A DNA stretch of 5,171 bases, from contig JAGCGE010000388.1 of NCBI GenBank assembly GCA_017649745.1, positions 1 through 5,171 of the forward strand. Reading direction: 5' to 3'. The stretch is from Clostridiales bacterium. GTDB taxonomy: Bacteria; Bacillota_A; Clostridia; Saccharofermentanales; Saccharofermentanaceae. Positions 1 to 5,171 of this stretch are shown piece after piece. Numbering within the stretch: the first letter of the stretch is position 1; each line of letters begins with the position of its first letter. The notes beneath the pieces are model-generated. The model made no database searches. It saw only the letters and a program-made list of their open reading frames with translations, and was not told the origin of the DNA. Position numbers and translations under genes: made by a program.

Positions 1-180
1 AACGGAGCTCACAAAGCAAGAACTCTTGTGACCTGACTGTCCCTGATCTGACGCAGTTGTCTGCATGCAGCAACCCGGACCCGAATGATATATCGGACAG
101 ACTCTGTCGATCGCGCCAAGCACGGAATTGATGCCGGCCAGAACGCAGCCGCCCTTAGGATTTTCCATTACGTTAGCCAT
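1..180 (-). CDS. Second nitrogenase-like NifK-type beta subunit (K2), N-terminal 60 residues; 3' part outside the window
   Basis: The first 60 codons are visible, starting MANVMENPKGGC. C12 and C37 (HSGPGCC, with an extra C38) are 25 residues apart, as are the first two NifK P-cluster cysteines (Cys70 and Cys95 in Azotobacter). The segment aligns with K1: CVLAGINSVLGAIDRVCPIYHSGPGC against CALAAMQTVQAIDRALPILHSGPGC. C25 and C55 are extra. The third expected P-cluster cysteine lies beyond the left edge. The start is fixed by GGGAGGA 7 nt upstream, inside the last D2 codons (Glu-Gly-Gly-Asn), and by the one-base gap to the D2 stop. D2 and K2 are therefore translationally coupled and should form a heteromeric complex. 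Confidence 0.85.
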   Translation of the reverse strand, partial: MANVMENPKGGCVLAGINSVLGAIDRVCPIYHSGPGCCMQTTASDQGQSGHKSSCFVSSV

Positions 181-181
181 G

Positions 182-1636
182 TCAGTTTCCTCCCTCAGTT
201 ATGTACTTAAACGGATTCTGCTCGTACCATGATTCCTTGTAAGGAAGCTTGGTATGTGCAGCAAGTTTCTTATTAAATCCCGGATTCTCCAGCTGATCGG
301 CGATCTTATTTCCGAGGAACAAAAGTCCGTCGTAACCCATGGTCGGGCGCTTACCGTCGAGAACATGAGTAGTCGGGATTCCGAGTTTAGCAGCCCACTC
401 CGGAACGCCGATGAAAGCATCAGGCTTCAGGCGATTAACGAGGTTGACCTGCTCGAACGGCTGCATATTAGCAATATCAACAACGAAGTCTTTATGAATG
501 CCGTTCAGATATTCGATATCTACTTGAGCATCATCGTCATAGGTCGGTGTCTCAAGACCTACAAGTTCCATTCCGAAATCGTCGATAAGTGCAGCAGCCG
601 CGAATGAACGTCCTGTTCCTCCGCAGATGAAGACACGCTTGCCCTGAAGTCTGTCGCGGATCTTCTTGACGAGCGGCTCGATCCTCTCGTGCTCGCGCGC
701 AATGATCTCTTCGACTTCTTTCTCCTTGCCGATGACCTTCGCGATACCTCTGTACCACTTGTCAGTATTACGGATACCGATCGGCATTACAGTGTGAGAA
801 TATGGAATGTCGTAGTCCTCTTCCAAAGTCTTCATGAACTCATCAGCGAAGACTTTACAGATTGATGTAGAAGCCTTTGCAGCAGGGATCTTGCGAATCT
901 TTTCGAGCGAACTGAAGAAAGGAATGTAATTGACCTTCGCACCAAGAAGAGAGAGCATTCTCTCCATCTCTTTCTGATCAGCGTAGCTTACAGTAGTCGG
1001 CGCGAAAAGATTGATAAGTCCGTCCTCTTTCTCAACTTTCTGATTCTTAAGAATGTACTTGTTGATCGATATGAAAGCAGCATCAAAACCTGATGCACAG
1101 ATCTTGGATTTGAAACCCTCACAATGGATCGGCACGAGAAGCGTATCAGGGAACTCAGACTGGAGATTCTCACAGATTGCATCGATGTCATCGCCGATGA
1201 TTCCCGACGCACATGATGTGAAAACGAAAGCGAGCTTCGGGTTATACCTGTCGACTGCTTTAGTAACTGCCTCGCGAAGCTTAGCCTCTCCTCCGAAAAC
1301 AACACTCTTCTGATCGATATTCGTTACGATCAATCGCGGATTTTTAACGTTCCTGATACCTCTATGGATCTGACCAACACGGTACATATCGATCGCCATG
1401 ATCGCACATCCCACACAGCCTTGCGGCGAGTGCGAGATAAACACGGAATCTTCAAGCGACATCAACGCCGCCATACTGTTAATCTGCTGGCACTGAAGTC
1501 CCTGAGCGAAGCTTCGGTCAGCTCTTTTAAGACAACCTTTCTTGTAATCCTCGCTGACTTCCTTACCTGTGGAACCCAGATCATTTAATCTGCCGGGCTT
1601 ACTTTCTCTTACACCTGAATATGTAACCTTAGACAT
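182..1636 (-). CDS. Second nitrogenase-like NifD-type alpha subunit (D2)
   Basis: The 484-aa product starts MSKVTYSG and is a clear paralogue of D1, with an aligned GII-G-[ED]-DID and HCEGFKS-[RK]-I core. P-cluster-type cysteines are C49, C74 (HSPQGC) and C142 (TSCASGIIGDDID). C260, 12 residues before EEDY, aligns with NifD Cys275. The Gln191 position is C180, His195 is F184 and His442 is L426, although H424 lies two residues away. GGTGRSF at 339-345 aligns with the GGLRPRH cofactor loop of NifD. D2 has far fewer N-terminal cysteines than D1 (C35 and C49 only). It sits between the NifX-like gene and K2, the order seen around NifE-NifN-NifX sets, so a scaffold role for D2-K2 is plausible; a second enzyme with another substrate is equally open. 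The start ATG is chosen for its AAGGAGG. The stop is one base before the K2 ATG, with K2's binding site inside the last codons. Confidence 0.88.
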   Translation of the reverse strand: MSKVTYSGVRESKPGRLNDLGSTGKEVSEDYKKGCLKRADRSFAQGLQCQQINSMAALMSLEDSVFISHSPQGCVGCAIMAIDMYRVGQIHRGIRNVKNPRLIVTNIDQKSVVFGGEAKLREAVTKAVDRYNPKLAFVFTSCASGIIGDDIDAICENLQSEFPDTLLVPIHCEGFKSKICASGFDAAFISINKYILKNQKVEKEDGLINLFAPTTVSYADQKEMERMLSLLGAKVNYIPFFSSLEKIRKIPAAKASTSICKVFADEFMKTLEEDYDIPYSHTVMPIGIRNTDKWYRGIAKVIGKEKEVEEIIAREHERIEPLVKKIRDRLQGKRVFICGGTGRSFAAAALIDDFGMELVGLETPTYDDDAQVDIEYLNGIHKDFVVDIANMQPFEQVNLVNRLKPDAFIGVPEWAAKLGIPTTHVLDGKRPTMGYDGLLFLGNKIADQLENPGFNKKLAAHTKLPYKESWYEQNPFKYITEGGN

Positions 1637-1642
1637 GATCTG

Positions 1643-1649
1643 CCTCCTT
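1643..1649 (-). promoter_or_regulatory. Ribosome binding site that sets the D2 start
   Basis: AAGGAGG lies on the minus strand 6 nt before the ATG at 1636, in the gap after the nifX-like stop. It favours that ATG over the in-frame TTG at 1654, which would place the site inside the coding region. Confidence 0.88.
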
Positions 1650-1650
1650 C

Positions 1651-2061
1651 TCAAGTGCCCGCACGAAGCGAGCGATTGTTATCGATCTTGTTGTAATATG
1701 AAGCGATCTTATTAAGTGCATCCGTAACCTTTGTCTCGATATCGAACACTGAGATCGCTCTCTTTTCGAACTGCTTCTGCGCCTGAAATCCGATCTTCTT
1801 GCAAACGACCGCACGGCAGTCTTCGACAGCAGTCACCTTAGCTGCGACTTCTTCACCGCCACCGCATCCGTGACCTCCGCCGGAGCACCCGTTCTTGTCG
1901 CCGCACTTGCTTACGCAAGCTTCACCTTCAGCGACTACACGCTCTTCATGAAGCTCGTACTTCTCGCCTTCAACTTTGTATATAAGGAACTTCTCGACTT
2001 CGCCGAACTTGAGGTCAGTGTTGACGCCGTCAGATGATCCTATCGCAATGTAATAAGCCAT
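1651..2061 (-). CDS. NifX/NafY-family cofactor-binding protein with a Cys-rich insert
   Basis: The 136-aa protein fits the dinitrogenase iron-molybdenum cofactor family (NifX, NafY, NifB C-terminal domain). It opens with MAYYIAIGSSDG, followed by LKFGEVEKFLIYKVEG (about 17-32, the family's HFG..FLIY segment with Lys in place of His). DCRAVVCKKIG follows at 81-91, and a helical end SVFDIETKVTDALNKIASYY at 104-123 completes the domain. Between the halves (about 49-69) is an unusual insert with C49, C53, C59, H64 and C66 in a Gly-rich GGGHGCGGG context, plus C82 and C87 nearby, suggesting metal or Fe-S cluster binding. Family members hold or transfer NifB-co or finished cofactor to NifEN or NifDK, so this one probably serves cofactor delivery to D2-K2 or D1-K1. 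The stop is 14 nt before the D2 ATG. It is the first gene after the inverted-repeat array. Confidence 0.82.
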   Translation of the reverse strand: MAYYIAIGSSDGVNTDLKFGEVEKFLIYKVEGEKYELHEERVVAEGEACVSKCGDKNGCSGGGHGCGGGEEVAAKVTAVEDCRAVVCKKIGFQAQKQFEKRAISVFDIETKVTDALNKIASYYNKIDNNRSLRAGT

Positions 2062-2067
2062 AACTAA

Positions 2068-2074
2068 CTCCTTT
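2068..2074 (-). promoter_or_regulatory. Ribosome binding site of the nifX-like gene
   Basis: AAAGGAG lies 6 nt before the ATG at 2061 on the minus strand. It is a strong site, which fixes the start. It sits close downstream of inverted-repeat unit 1. Confidence 0.85.
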
Positions 2075-2084
2075 ATTTACATGT

Positions 2085-2118
2085 CCAACATAACCATCGA
2101 TTTTCACGTTAATGTTGG
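2085..2118. repeat. Inverted-repeat unit 1 (nearest the nifX-like start)
   Basis: Perfect arms CCAACAT (2085-2091) and ATGTTGG (2112-2118) are separated by 20 nt. The pairing extends inward by AAC/GTT with a one-base bulge. The minus-strand core GAAAAT is at 2105-2100. The inner edge lies 23 nt before the start codon and about 10 nt before the Shine-Dalgarno sequence, so a bound protein or a hairpin could affect initiation. Confidence 0.85.
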
Positions 2119-2164
2119 GTTTTTCCGGTAGATTTCAGCTGATTTTTCTCGAAAAAACCAACAT
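2112..2164. repeat. 14-nt inverted repeat linking units 1 and 2
   Basis: ATGTTGGGTTTTTC (2112-2125) and GAAAAAACCAACAT (2151-2164) are reverse complements at 13 of 14 positions, with 25 nt between. The repeat uses one arm from unit 1 and one from unit 2, so in RNA or cruciform DNA it would compete with the two unit hairpins. Confidence 0.65.
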
Positions 2165-2191
2165 TTATTCGAAAATAAGAATTTATGTTGG
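2158..2191. repeat. Inverted-repeat unit 2, followed by T6 on the minus strand
   Basis: Perfect arms CCAACAT (2158-2164) and ATGTTGG (2185-2191) flank a core with a further inner inverted repeat, ATTC (2167-2170) and GAAT (2179-2182). GAAAAT is on the plus strand at 2171-2176, so this unit is inverted relative to units 1 and 3. In minus-strand RNA the hairpin is followed at once by U6 (2157-2152), which resembles an intrinsic terminator. Confidence 0.85.
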
Positions 2192-2220
2192 ATATCACCT
2201 CTTAAGATGTTCGAAAATTC

Positions 2221-2254
2221 CCAACATGATATTCATTTTCGAGTGTTATGTAGG
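2221..2254. repeat. Inverted-repeat unit 3 (farthest from the nifX-like start)
   Basis: Arms CCAACAT (2221-2227) and ATGTAGG (2248-2254, one mismatch) are separated by 20 nt. The minus-strand core GAAAAT is at 2240-2235. The unit begins just after the terminator of the upstream unit. Confidence 0.85.
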
Positions 2255-2261
2255 ACCCCCG

Positions 2262-2307
2262 AAAAGAGAATATACCAAGCACAACGAATCGTGCCTGGCA
2301 TATCCCC
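2262..2307 (-). terminator. Intrinsic terminator of the cysK-D1-K1 unit
   Basis: Starting 8 nt after the K1 stop, the minus strand reads a left arm GGGGATATGCCAGGCAC (2307-2291), a loop of 8 nt (2290-2283) and a right arm GTGCTTGGTATATTCTC (2282-2266), followed by TTTT (2265-2262). The arms pair over 17 positions if four G:U wobbles are allowed. The wobbles exist only in minus-strand RNA (they become A:C mismatches in plus-strand RNA), which supports the orientation. The U tract is short (U4, then CGGGGG), so termination may be partial and allow some read-through into the downstream nifX-like unit. Confidence 0.68.
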
Positions 2308-2315
2308 ACGTTTTA

Positions 2316-3614
2316 TCAGTTAAATCGGGAAACTGCTACTGTATAGCTGTCCTCGATGAGGCGGATACCGCCTTCATAACCGACATATGATCTGTCGAAT
2401 ACCACCTTGTCCTGTACAGGCCATGAGATATTCAGGAAGTTACCTTTTAATGATTCTGTCACTTCTTTATCGTAGTAACCGCCAAGCACCAGCGGATAAC
2501 CATGATAGTCGTGTTCCTTGATCTCGTTGTGGATCTTGAATCCGTCTGTCTCGAATGAGACGTCTGCTTCGATACCAAAGTTCAGTTTCTTGAACTCTTC
2601 AGCGATCTGATCTCTGTAGTTCTTTGGTGTGTCGTCGACGACAAACTGCTTAGCCGGAATGAGACCCAAGTCGTTAACGAGGAACTTAGTGATTCCAAGT
2701 GAGTACTGCGCATCAGCTACGACAGTGAATTGCTTGTTTATGACGCGGTTCTCAAGGAAGAGGTCTGCATATCTTCCGATGAGATAATAGTAGTAGTCCT
2801 CATGCTCCTTGACGACTGCTTCGATCTTCTCTTCGGCAACGCCTGCGAACTTACCGACTTCTCTTAGAAACTTACTGGTCTCTGTGGCTCCGATTGGAAG
2901 CGTCGGATAGTGAAGATAAGGAGTACCGAATTTACGCTCCATCTTCTTAACGTTGCCGAGTCCCACCCAAGGTGAAACGAGAAGATTGAATTCAGCTTCA
3001 GGGATCTTGTTGATGTTCTCGATTCCTCTGTTGTAGCCGAAGATCGTGTTAGGTGTGAGTCCTAATTCGGCAACCAGTTGCTCTAATGCTCTTAAGTTAC
3101 CGAGCCAGAAAAGATCCTGATACGGAACGTCTGCCCAGATATTCACAAGACCCTTCTGCTTCTTGTCTGACTTCTTAAGGTACTGCTCTATGATCGCGTC
3201 AACGACCTGCTCGTGTCCCTTGTAGTTGTTGCCCTTGAATCCTGCAGTTGGTGCATAGATAACAGGCTTATCAGCATCTTCGAATCTCGATACAACTTCG
3301 CCTGAATCATCACCAACGATCTCAGGGATACATCCTGTGAGAACAACATAAAGGTCTGCGTCGATGACCTTGAGAGCGTTTTCAATAGTGGAATTAAGTT
3401 TCTTTACGCCACCGAAAACAACGTCCTTCTCATTGATACTCGTACACGGGAAGATGTTCGGAGAAAAGTATCCGGAACTTCCGTTTGTATCGGAGAGTTT
3501 CTGTGCGCAGCCAGGACCTGAGTGAAGTATAGGCAATGCTCTGTCGATCGCCTGAACTGTCTGCATCGCAGCCAGCGCACATTTATATCTTTGCTTATCA
3601 AGTATTTTAGCCAT
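2316..3614 (-). CDS. Nitrogenase-like component 1, NifK-type beta subunit (K1), partner of D1
   Basis: The product is 432 aa, starting MAKILDKQ. It carries the three beta-side P-cluster-type cysteines: C12, C36 (HSGPGC) and C95 (TGCIPEIVGDD). NifK-family marks include DVVFGG at 64-69, PTAGFKGN near 122-129, and a C-terminal WPVQDKV...YVGYEGG segment at 398-416 that matches the FP..DR...GYEG end of NifK. It is about 90 residues shorter than Azotobacter NifK, lacking the long N-terminal extension, as is common in NifN and nitrogenase-like K proteins. A GTG start 45 nt upstream (3659) is open, but the ATG at 3614 is chosen because GGAGGAG lies 8 nt before it and it overlaps the D1 stop by one base (TAATG), a translational-coupling arrangement that fits a 1:1 subunit ratio. 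It probably pairs with D1 and shares a bridging Fe-S cluster with it. An intrinsic terminator follows the stop. Confidence 0.9.
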   Translation of the reverse strand: MAKILDKQRYKCALAAMQTVQAIDRALPILHSGPGCAQKLSDTNGSSGYFSPNIFPCTSINEKDVVFGGVKKLNSTIENALKVIDADLYVVLTGCIPEIVGDDSGEVVSRFEDADKPVIYAPTAGFKGNNYKGHEQVVDAIIEQYLKKSDKKQKGLVNIWADVPYQDLFWLGNLRALEQLVAELGLTPNTIFGYNRGIENINKIPEAEFNLLVSPWVGLGNVKKMERKFGTPYLHYPTLPIGATETSKFLREVGKFAGVAEEKIEAVVKEHEDYYYYLIGRYADLFLENRVINKQFTVVADAQYSLGITKFLVNDLGLIPAKQFVVDDTPKNYRDQIAEEFKKLNFGIEADVSFETDGFKIHNEIKEHDYHGYPLVLGGYYDKEVTESLKGNFLNISWPVQDKVVFDRSYVGYEGGIRLIEDSYTVAVSRFN

Positions 3615-5080
3615 TATTTGTTCTCCTCCAGGAATGTATCGACATCCTGCTTGTACCACCAGTCTGTGTATGGAAGCTTGGATCTCTTAGCGAGGTTCTC
3701 CTCGAAGCTTCGATTCTTGATCGCGTCGACGATCGTTTTCGCGAACTCAAGAGTATGCTTGTAACCGAAGATCATGTACTCGTCGGCTACATAGATAGCA
3801 GGTGTGCCGTTCTTGATAGCCCATACCGTTGAACCCGGATGACGGGACAGGTACATATCAGGCTTATATTTGTGGAGGATATTCATTACCTCATAGTTCT
3901 GCTGATCGGCTACGCTTGCCTCGAAGTCGATATCGTTATCGAGGAGGTACTTCATTGAAGGCGGAACGTCACCGTTCTCATACTTCTTGTCGTAGTGCCA
4001 AGCGAGAGCCCATACTACCTTAATGCCAAGCTCATCGAGTACTCGGGATACTTCAAACGTATAGCCAGGACCCATTCCGAGAACAGCTGTAAGACCCTTG
4101 AGTTCCTTCTTGACCTCTTCGATCTGAGGAATGTAGATCGCACGCTGCTCTTCGATGTATTTCTCGATCTTCTCGGATCTGCCGGTAACCTTACCGAGCT
4201 CGCGGAGCCATGTCTCAAAACCCTTGATACCGCACTGGTTGATGCTCCTTACATAAGGAACTCCGTACTTTTCTTCAAGTGAGTTACCAAGGTAGTTACC
4301 GAGAGTACCGCAGATACATGTCGTAGCGACAGCCTCAGAAAGATGAGAGAGTTCTTCGACTGTTGAGTTACAGTAGAGGAATACAGGATCAAGGTCGAAG
4401 TTCTTGAACATCTCGATTATCTCCGGACGGGCACTCTCGAAAAAGTTCTTGAAGTTGATCTTGTTAGTCTTAACGCCTTCCCTCGGTGGCTGCACGATAG
4501 ACTGCAAAACAGCGTGATCCGAAATATCGAAACCGGTTGCCCAGATACGTGACTTGAAGCCTTCGCAGTGGACTGCAACGATCGGTACGCCGACCTCATC
4601 TCTTACTTCATCAACGATACTGTCGATGTCCTCACCGATGATACCAGTTGCACAGGAACTTGATACAAAGATAGCCTTCGGTGAATATCTCTTGTTAACT
4701 TCAAGGATGACGTTTCTCAACGTATTAGTTGATCCGAAGATCGTGTCATTCTCGTTCATGTCTGTTCCGACATATACTGTGTCACTTGTAACGCCGCGCT
4801 TCTTTGACATTACCTTGGCCATATAATAGGATCCGGCTGCCGCAACGGAACATCCTGCAGGACCGTGGTGGATAAGTGCTACATCGCGGATACCGCAGAG
4901 CTGTCCGAGAGCACATGAAGAAAGACATGTACTGGACTGTGAAAAGCATCTGGAACATCCCTTGAGCGTTCCGCACTCACTTTGTGTAGCGAGATCTTTT
5001 AATGTTCCTACGTAGCCCGTGATGGAACCGATTCGGTTCTCTCTTGTAGCTATGTTGGAATTATTCAGATTAGTTGGCAT
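3614..5080 (-). CDS. Nitrogenase-like component 1, NifD-type alpha subunit (D1); not a true nitrogenase
   Basis: The 488-aa product has the full length of NifD (about 490 aa) and its three-part Rossmann-like layout. P-cluster-type cysteines are seen at C52, C77 (HHGPAGC) and C143 (SSCATGIIGEDID). CEGF is at 172-175. C257, exactly 12 residues before EEKYG, aligns with FeMo-co ligand Cys275 of Azotobacter NifD. By the same anchored alignment Gln191 is W180, His195 is F184 and His442 is A432, so N2 reduction is very unlikely. The N-terminus is unusually cysteine-rich (C36, C42, C45, C52, C56, C62). The protein should form a heterotetramer with K1, carry Fe-S clusters and take electrons from a NifH-like ATPase not seen here. 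The start ATG follows the cysK stop by 3 nt with GAAGAGG 8 nt upstream. The substrate is unknown; the cysK linkage suggests sulfur metabolism. A scaffold role (NifE-like) is the main alternative. Confidence 0.9.
   Translation of the reverse strand: MPTNLNNSNIATRENRIGSITGYVGTLKDLATQSECGTLKGCSRCFSQSSTCLSSCALGQLCGIRDVALIHHGPAGCSVAAAGSYYMAKVMSKKRGVTSDTVYVGTDMNENDTIFGSTNTLRNVILEVNKRYSPKAIFVSSSCATGIIGEDIDSIVDEVRDEVGVPIVAVHCEGFKSRIWATGFDISDHAVLQSIVQPPREGVKTNKINFKNFFESARPEIIEMFKNFDLDPVFLYCNSTVEELSHLSEAVATTCICGTLGNYLGNSLEEKYGVPYVRSINQCGIKGFETWLRELGKVTGRSEKIEKYIEEQRAIYIPQIEEVKKELKGLTAVLGMGPGYTFEVSRVLDELGIKVVWALAWHYDKKYENGDVPPSMKYLLDNDIDFEASVADQQNYEVMNILHKYKPDMYLSRHPGSTVWAIKNGTPAIYVADEYMIFGYKHTLEFAKTIVDAIKNRSFEENLAKRSKLPYTDWWYKQDVDTFLEENK
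3623..3629 (-). promoter_or_regulatory. Ribosome binding site of K1, inside the last codons of D1
   Basis: GGAGGAG reads on the minus strand within the codons for the final Glu-Glu residues of D1, 8 nt before the K1 ATG. It decides the K1 start at 3614 over the upstream GTG at 3659. Together with the TAATG stop/start overlap it implies coupled translation of D1 and K1. Confidence 0.85.
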
Positions 5081-5083
5081 ATA

Positions 5084-5171
5084 TTAAACCTCTTCTGCAA
5101 AAAGATTAGTGGAAAGGTAACGAAGACCTGTATCAGGGAATACAGCTACGATCTTCTTGCCCTTGTTCTCA
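5084..5171 (-). CDS. cysK: Cysteine synthase (O-acetylserine sulfhydrylase), C-terminal 28 residues; 5' part outside the window
   Basis: Only the last 28 codons and the TAA stop are visible. They encode a tail ending PDTGLRYLSTNLFAEEV, which matches the C-terminal segment of PLP-dependent cysteine synthases (family pattern P-[DS]-[TS]-G-E-R-Y-L-S-T-x-L-F). In that family the Ser/Thr-Gly part of this segment lies near the PLP pyridine ring. The enzyme makes L-cysteine from O-acetylserine and sulfide in the cytoplasm. The usual Glu of GERYLST is Leu here. The stop codon is 3 nt before the start of the nitrogenase-like D1 gene, and D1's ribosome binding site (GAAGAGG) lies inside these last codons, so the genes are co-transcribed. 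A cystathionine beta-synthase-like relative using the same fold cannot be excluded from so short a fragment. Confidence 0.85.
   Translation of the reverse strand, partial: ENKGKKIVAVFPDTGLRYLSTNLFAEEV

Follow-up and report, generated by a model that had tools for sequence, protein, structure and literature searches.

The stretch of DNA analysed here, called the window throughout, comprises 5,171 nucleotides (contig JAGCGE010000388.1 of assembly GCA_017649745.1, positions 1 to 5,171) from a Clostridiales bacterium of the family Saccharofermentanaceae, and it carries two nitrogenase component-1-like gene pairs, D1-K1 and D2-K2, with a gene for a NifX-like protein, X, between them. All genes of the window lie on the minus strand, in the order CysK-like end, D1, K1, X, D2 and start of K2:

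5084 to 5170, minus strand: C-terminus of a CysK-like pyridoxal phosphate enzyme, 28 codons and stop; the remainder lies outside the window
3614 to 5080, minus strand: D1, MarD-like alpha subunit, 488 amino acids (PF00148, 3e-70)
2316 to 3614, minus strand: K1, MarK-like beta subunit, 432 amino acids (PF00148, 1e-69)
1651 to 2061, minus strand: X, NifX-like protein, 136 amino acids (PF02579, 4e-14)
182 to 1636, minus strand: D2, second group IV alpha subunit, 484 amino acids (PF00148, 2e-80)
1 to 180, minus strand: K2, start of the second beta subunit, 60 codons (93% identity to K2 of the related locus L005)

These reading frames are not chance ones, because at least 964 relatives of D2 and at least 1191 of D1 were found at E <=0.001 (each protein search listed 120 matches after scoring its top 7998, 7997 or 7998 candidates). 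The CysK-like fragment ends with its stop at 5084, three bases ahead of D1, and best matches the cysK copy that precedes D1 in locus L020 (89% over 27 amino acids). K2 runs past the edge of the window, so the second pair is complete in relatives only. X contains an insertion rich in Cys, Gly and His (CVSKC, GCSGGGHGCGGG) and is a probable cofactor carrier. D1, K1 and D2 score far under the NCBIfam cut-offs for nifD, nifK, nifE and vnf/anf, and all three stay well short of the curated thresholds of those nitrogenase, NifEN, DPOR and Cfb models that they match. A nitrogenase was ruled out for both pairs by these scores and by the lost active-site residues, Gln191 and His195 of NifD being kept in neither D1 nor D2.

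The first pair is of the methylthio-alkane reductase (MAR) type. The best sequence match of D1 in the PDB is MarD of Rhodospirillum rubrum (9fmg_A, 1.4e-88; 33% identity), which is also the structure closest to its AlphaFold2 model (predicted local distance difference test, pLDDT, 82.6; template modelling, TM, score 0.82/0.85), and K1 best matches MarK (9d9u_C, 1.1e-110). In the trees, D1 and K1 group with R. rubrum MarD and MarK, apart from Nif, and the MAR clade that includes them is supported at 99.9/100 among 61 D proteins, 100/100 among 80 D proteins and 96.3/96 among 59 K proteins; D1-K1 lies inside the MAR clade. D1 keeps all three P-cluster cysteines and the equivalent of NifD Cys275 (MarD Cys270), K1 keeps Cys12, Cys36 and Cys95, and the pair matches all six P-cluster cysteines of MAR (MarD 66/91/158, MarK 32/56/121). 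MarD His429 is described as the Fe8 ligand of MAR (PMC12552129), and, of the MAR residues given in that source, D1 keeps the equivalents of Cys270, Trp195, Phe199, His375, Gln74 and Arg428-His429, differing at His194 (Ile) and Cys73 (Gly). Two features, placed by alignment, carry the ligand equivalents:

4310 to 4321, minus strand: TCIC of D1, with Cys257 equivalent to MarD Cys270 (Fe1 ligand)
3833 to 3847, minus strand: loop I of D1, SRHPG, with Arg413-His414 equivalent to MarD Arg428-His429

Two other MAR-clade D proteins (loci L095 and L096) have Arg-Ala in loop I, not Arg-His, and are thus devoid of the MAR histidine ligand.

The second pair is more divergent. D2 shares 28% identity with D1 and 31% with MarD, which is its best PDB sequence match (2.9e-71) and also the best fold match of its AlphaFold2 model (9fmg_A, pLDDT 84, TM 0.83/0.86); the full-length K2 relative of L005 best matches MarK (1.9e-70). 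D2 has all three P-cluster cysteines and the Cys275/Cys270 equivalent; Cys12 and Cys37 of the P-cluster set are visible in the K2 of the window, and the L005 relative has all three. D2 has a sister group, D2', 46-48% identical to it. Alignment of 80 proteins showed that all 14 D2 and D2' proteins keep the P-cluster cysteines, the cysteine ligand and a histidine in loop II, that the Arg-His of the MAR loop I is deleted in all 14, and that Cys or His occupies the Trp195 position. The residues that align with the two cluster ligands of NifD are:

857 to 865, minus strand: SIC of D2, with Cys260 equivalent to MarD Cys270 and NifD Cys275; invariant in 51 aligned sequences
362 to 373, minus strand: TTHV of D2, with loop-II His424 in the alignment column of NifD His442; invariant in 14 D2 sequences

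Elsewhere, the D protein of locus L097 (6487) has a histidine in both loop I and loop II and that of L136 (7008) has Gln in loop II; these proteins are possible intermediates in a shift of the cluster ligand between loops. One D2 homologue (P0120) is listed with a PF01497 periplasmic-binding domain besides PF00148, which may be a fusion or an assembly artefact.

In the original prediction, made without database searches, both D proteins and K1 were said to keep P-cluster cysteines and both D proteins the Cys275 equivalent, and two diverged component-1-like pairs with a NifX-like protein and a link to cysK were proposed, with complex Fe-S clusters likely and with the residues for N2 reduction gone. 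Domain matches, model scores and alignment bear out all of this, with the qualification that the second pair breaks off within K2.

Two known group IV enzymes offer other identities for these proteins. Group IV-A NfaDK, found in Endomicrobium proavitum and Paenibacillus riograndensis, has been credited with N2 fixation in E. proavitum, whose protein is predicted to retain every ligand for N2 reduction in a genome devoid of NifE and NifN (PMC9147875). With its Cys275 equivalent and a histidine in the His442 column, D2 seems to share two of these ligands, and D2-K2 could accordingly be such an enzyme, reducing N2 or another non-sulfur substrate. Nevertheless, Gln191 and His195 of NifD are Cys and Phe in D2, the common neighbours of D2 are sulfur genes, and D2 has been likened to group IV-A by description only, not by sequence, so that we consider this identity improbable. 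The second candidate is the isethionate reductase (Isr), or another type with [4Fe-4S] clusters only, for both pairs. IsrBHDK of Rhodobacter capsulatus is likewise a group IV enzyme of sulfur assimilation; it is accompanied by Ssu sulfonate transporter genes and is said to be present in intestinal bacteria (PMC11423573), and SsuABC-like transporters occur near many of the loci studied here. IsrD, however, keeps one of three P-cluster cysteines and neither cofactor ligand according to the same source, whereas D1 and D2 keep all three and the cysteine ligand. Furthermore, the Isr-like proteins of loci L100-L102, so named from their residues only (Cys66 to Asp, Cys158 to Pro, Cys270 to Asn), form a separate clade supported at 100/100. 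Isr identity is very improbable, being largely ruled out by the kept ligand residues. The NifH encoded beside the Isr-like pairs of L100-L102 is just 49-51% identical to the NifH of D1 clusters.

A relationship of D2 to NifE was examined with trees. D2 and D2' form one clade (99.1/100, 80-taxon tree), as do K2 and K2' (92.5/98, 59-protein tree of K proteins, in which K2 is nearest the Isr-like K at a support of 16.2/58). Approximately unbiased (AU) tests covered groupings of D2 with NifE and with MAR. A single clade of D2 and NifE, represented by four clostridial NifE only, was rejected (p-AU 4e-58), and D2 reaches 168 of the 505 bits set as cut-off in the NifE model; D2 as a NifE orthologue is thereby ruled out by the AU test, and D2-K2 is a group IV lineage distinct from NifE. 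A single clade of D2 and MAR was not rejected (p-AU 0.307), and the trees put D2 outside the MAR clade. According to the original prediction, the novelty would be lost if D1 or D2 belonged to one known nitrogenase-like group with the same gene layout; D1 does belong to a known group, MAR.

The window itself contains neither nifH nor nifB, as was stated from its sequence. This absence is an edge effect of the 5.2 kb, because both genes lie just upstream in relatives: in six close ones (L001, L003, L005, L009, L010, L016) the order is cysK, NifB-like radical SAM gene, NifX-like gene, NifH-like gene, CysK-like gene, D1, K1, X, D2, K2. The NifB-like proteins of these six have no NifX domain. In L005 the NifH-like protein passes the cut-off of the nifH model (464 against 394 bits) and the NifB-like protein stays under that of the nifB model (257 against 344 bits). 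MarB- and MarH-like genes are thus present for D1-K1 in relatives, and are expected by synteny for the window itself.

Searches of 14 genomes with the L005 NifB-like (E <=1e-30) and NifH-like (E <=1e-40) proteins showed how many such helpers accompany the pairs. Nine genomes have both D types (G001, G002, G004, G006, G009, G020, G160, G210, G408); exactly one NifB match occurs in eight of them and exactly one NifH match in seven, also where D1-K1 and D2-K2 are not adjacent. The original prediction had noted that a genome devoid of any NifH-like gene would argue against a functional two-component reductase, and most of the genomes tested do have one. The exceptions among the nine are G001, with a second NifH match (48% identical), and G210, where D1 is a fragment and neither protein was matched. 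Neither was matched in G018, whose component-1 content is D2-K2 only. One NifB and one NifH match each were found in G161 (D2' only) and in G167, G078 and G303 (D1 only). The two genes sit with D1-K1 in G002, G004, G006, G009 and G020; in G160 the single NifB- and NifH-like genes adjoin D2-K2, not D1-K1, and in G275 a single run reads B-X-D2-K2-H-cysK-D1-K1-cysK-X. In G161, D2'-K2' is the sole component-1 pair and is accompanied by one NifB- and one NifH-like gene of the D1-cluster kind.

Collectively, these results point, with somewhat better than even odds in our judgement, to two group IV catalytic components for organosulfur reduction that have one maturase and one reductase in common. Since other genomes have further pairs, two pairs with one NifB and one NifH are seen most cleanly in G002, G006, G009 and G160. 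The chief alternative is that D2-K2 is an assembly scaffold for D1-K1, a NifEN analogue that arose inside group IV: a cluster would be loaded onto D2-K2, carried by the NifX-like protein and received by D1-K1. NifEN is likewise a second DK-like pair beside the catalytic one, with NifH and NifB in common and with NifX, and the helpers common to both pairs suit a scaffold as well. So does the place of X, which lies between K1 and D2 in the window and immediately ahead of D2 in Treponema loci (e.g., L074-L077); against this, X adjoins K1 in L110, L113 and L117, where no D2-K2 is adjacent.

The distribution of the two pairs bears on the same question. A scan with one genome per species gave 187 stretches that encode a D2 relative, and the best 80 of these 187 come from Lachnospiraceae, other Clostridia (Ruminococcus, Eubacterium, Butyrivibrio and others) and Treponema, the record titles of many naming rumen or other gut sites. 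The isolates that carry the system include Eubacterium ruminantium, Butyrivibrio hungatei and Treponema bryantii. K1 lies at most 2.5 kb before D2 in 27 of the 80 loci, or in 24 of the 65 with at least 2.5 kb before D2, and the two pairs are on separate contigs in E. ruminantium (G002) and B. hungatei (G006). Among 298 Lachnospiraceae genomes (completeness 90 requested, per-genome values not given), D2 orthologues (>=75% identity) were found in 13 and D1 orthologues (>=65%) in 21, where the D1 of G210 is a fragment of 109 residues and the D2 of G249 a piece of 138. By hand, the 52 genomes with a match were divided into the 21 with D1, 22 that have other group IV types and 9 set aside because their best matches were weaker and appeared to be nif-type or fused. 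Eight of the 21 have D1 and no D2, and among the 18 Treponemataceae genomes with D1', 12 have no D2', which suggests that D1-K1 can do without D2-K2. No more than 5 candidates were scored for each genome of this sample and of a phylum-wide one; in the D2 search of the genomes with D1 only, all candidates were scored in G167, G303, G104, G145 and G247 and not in G256, G078 and G255. The phylum-wide draw of 299 genomes gave a close D2 in the centre genome G002 only, and 12 genomes with a match at E <=1e-45; the samples include their centre genomes, G002 and G009, each a known D2 carrier.

Several observations weigh against two independent enzymes. First, D2 is nested in D1: the 21 Lachnospiraceae carriers of D1 include all 13 carriers of D2, none of the 22 carriers of other group IV types, G161 with its D2' among them, has a D2 orthologue, and in 145 Treponemataceae genomes the 7 D2 carriers are exactly the 7 carriers of a close D1 and the 6 D2' carriers all fall among the 18 D1' carriers. 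This pattern would also be expected if D2-K2 were a helper of D1-K1, and a scaffold explains it better. Second, the two cases of a second pair on its own are open to question, G161 being one genome of unstated completeness with a D2' just 46% identical to D2, and G018 being possibly short of contigs because NifB and NifH are absent from it too. Third, D1-K1 and D2-K2 are not the sole component-1 pairs of G001, G004, G020 and G408, which have additional ones. Fourth, the D2 loop-II histidine is suggestive only of a cluster held as by NifD His442, the column match being alignment-based and uncertain by a residue or two. Loop I His is missing in D2, and the clostridial NifE loop II, HxxExKHP, resembles that of D2, HxxDxKRP, with the histidine in the same column, so that this residue alone cannot separate enzyme from scaffold; automatic annotation also names several D2 relatives NifE. 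Fifth, the placement of D2 is unstable, beside clade B in the 61-taxon tree (54.6/81) but, in the 80-taxon tree, between Nif and the other group IV proteins (5/42). Finally, the neighbour counts given below are raw, and the transporter names among them are shorthand.

Even so, the two-enzyme reading explains what a scaffold does not: the frequent D1 without D2, D2'-K2' as the sole pair of G161, the helper genes next to D2-K2 in G160 and the rejected grouping with NifE, which sets D2 apart from NifEN itself. The production of R. rubrum MAR from MarB, MarH, MarD and MarK (PMC12552129) also speaks against a need for a scaffold, but it weighs little because the nif assembly genes of the host may have helped. 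In NifEN the L-cluster is bound through Cys250 and Gln419, with no strong histidine, and the histidine ligand of the large cluster is described as having originated independently in nitrogenase and MAR (PMC13031127). A scaffold for D1-K1 is, on balance, rather unlikely. It is quite doubtful that a MAR-type scaffold arose independently of NifEN, with the loop-II histidine as transfer site, and that the enzyme-plus-scaffold arrangement hence arose twice. Of the alternatives posed in the original prediction, enzyme plus scaffold and two enzymes, both are still in play and the latter is preferred. The P-cluster cysteines of K proteins were dropped as a means of telling scaffold from enzyme, since clostridial NifN, in the nif loci compared, likewise retains the full set of three.

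The neighbourhood of the pairs fits the scavenging of sulfur. Over the 80 loci, in which many contigs are incomplete, common neighbours by raw count are a CymR/IscR-type regulator of the Rrf2 family (30), cysK (25), SsuC-like (22) and SsuA-like (21) genes and CysE (11). The SsuA-like protein matches Pfam models of the NMT1 type but none from NCBIfam. Also nearby are cysteine synthase A, which passes its model cut-off, CysE-like proteins, cystathionine-type pyridoxal phosphate enzymes, NifS, IscU-like proteins, a D-cysteine desulfhydrase-family enzyme and ATP-binding cassette (ABC) transporters provisionally named SsuABC-like or amino-acid type. Genes for group IV-A proteins like MarHDK have been described near sulfur genes as well (PMC10418091).

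Judging from these sequences, D1-K1 and D2-K2 are most likely both sulfur-scavenging enzymes, and we infer the identity of their clusters, the role of His424 as a ligand, and what reactions they catalyse on which substrates as follows. One NifB-like maturase would build an [Fe8S9C]-type (carbide) cluster, NifX-like proteins would carry it, and one NifH-like ATPase would feed electrons to both component-1 enzymes. D1-K1 would act as a MAR-type C-S bond reductase in which electrons pass from the P-cluster to an [Fe8S9C] cluster on Cys257 and loop-I His414. D2-K2 may be a second reductase, with a P-cluster and then an [Fe8S9C]-type cluster on Cys260 and, presumably, on loop-II His424 as in NifD, and may act likewise on another substrate. 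Each would probably release sulfur from its own kind of organosulfur compound, in the form of sulfide, thiol or sulfite, and CysE/CysK-type enzymes could then fix the freed sulfur into cysteine.

Compared to known systems, this one shares much with MarBHDK of R. rubrum (PDB 9fmg, 9d9u): D1-K1 falls into the same clade with the same set of P-cluster and [Fe8S9C] ligands, including the Arg-His of loop I, and NifB- and NifH-like partners are likewise present in relatives of the window. Unlike in MAR, a second component-1 pair here draws on the same partners, and D1 has Ile and Gly at the active-site positions of MarD His194 and Cys73. The activity of MAR is the reduction of 2-(methylthio)ethanol, dimethyl sulfide or ethyl methyl sulfide, and D1-K1 is predicted to cleave C-S bonds likewise. 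Heliophilum fasciatum, likened here by description only, likewise has several clustered group IV DK pairs (NflDK1-4 of NflDK1-5) with single nifB-, nifH-, nifX- and fdxB-like genes at the NflDK1 locus; it is a phototroph with four clustered pairs, one of them proposed as its nitrogenase, and multiple copies are said not to be unusual in group IV genomes (PMC9147875). The original prediction knew of no described system with this layout. It is a variant and not a new kind of system, because multi-pair group IV clusters have already been described in Heliophilum, and three clostridial stretches (L131, L135, L137) also bring together two or three distinct DK pairs of group IV. One NifB- and one NifH-like gene were seen in L131, and neither was seen in the sequence covered for L135 and L137. 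Searches of the open-access literature listed no paper whose title or abstract concerns the two-pair system, subscription papers lying mostly outside the scope of these searches. Further background is given in PMC13245594, PMC11257099, PMC9391474, PMC9641968, PMC8209448, PMC11659671 and PMC12330013.

Some features concern the mobility of the genes and the spacer between K1 and X. Treponema D2 sequences are 82-84% identical to that of the window, which suggests that D2 moved between phyla. A set of viral contigs scanned with the D alignment contained no relative. Plasmid pTS2 of Treponema saccharophilum (382 kb; L141, 5386-24382) carries a cysK-B-X-H cluster with one radical SAM (NifB-like) and one nifH gene, two DK pairs and an ABC transporter; an IS30 transposase lies within this region, and a type I-C CRISPR locus is close by. 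One D protein is of the D1' type and the other has the MAR Arg-His loop, and neither is a D2. The AT-rich spacer of 254 bases between K1 and X contains a repeat, identified in the sequence, that could be a small mobile or regulatory element:

2081 to 2195, no strand assigned: AT-rich part of the K1-X gap, containing an imperfect inverted repeat of 45 nucleotides (73%)

Repeated ATGTTGG words also occur there. Rfam gave microRNA and snoRNA families alone for the window, both under the gathering score, with the microRNA model at this gap.

What is new is the defined combination of D1 and D2, the two different probable loops for the histidine ligand and the helpers in common; the kind of system is already known. 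In nitrogenase and MAR, the histidine ligand of the large cluster is on different loops (PMC12552129), and D2, a group IV protein in which the MAR loop is deleted and a histidine stands in the nitrogenase loop, makes the question of the ligand loop testable. Any bearing on rumen methane, ethylene or sulfide is speculation. Two enzymes on one reductase and one maturase, carried by isolates, would provide an entry to how many organosulfur compounds gut and rumen bacteria may open by nitrogenase-type chemistry.

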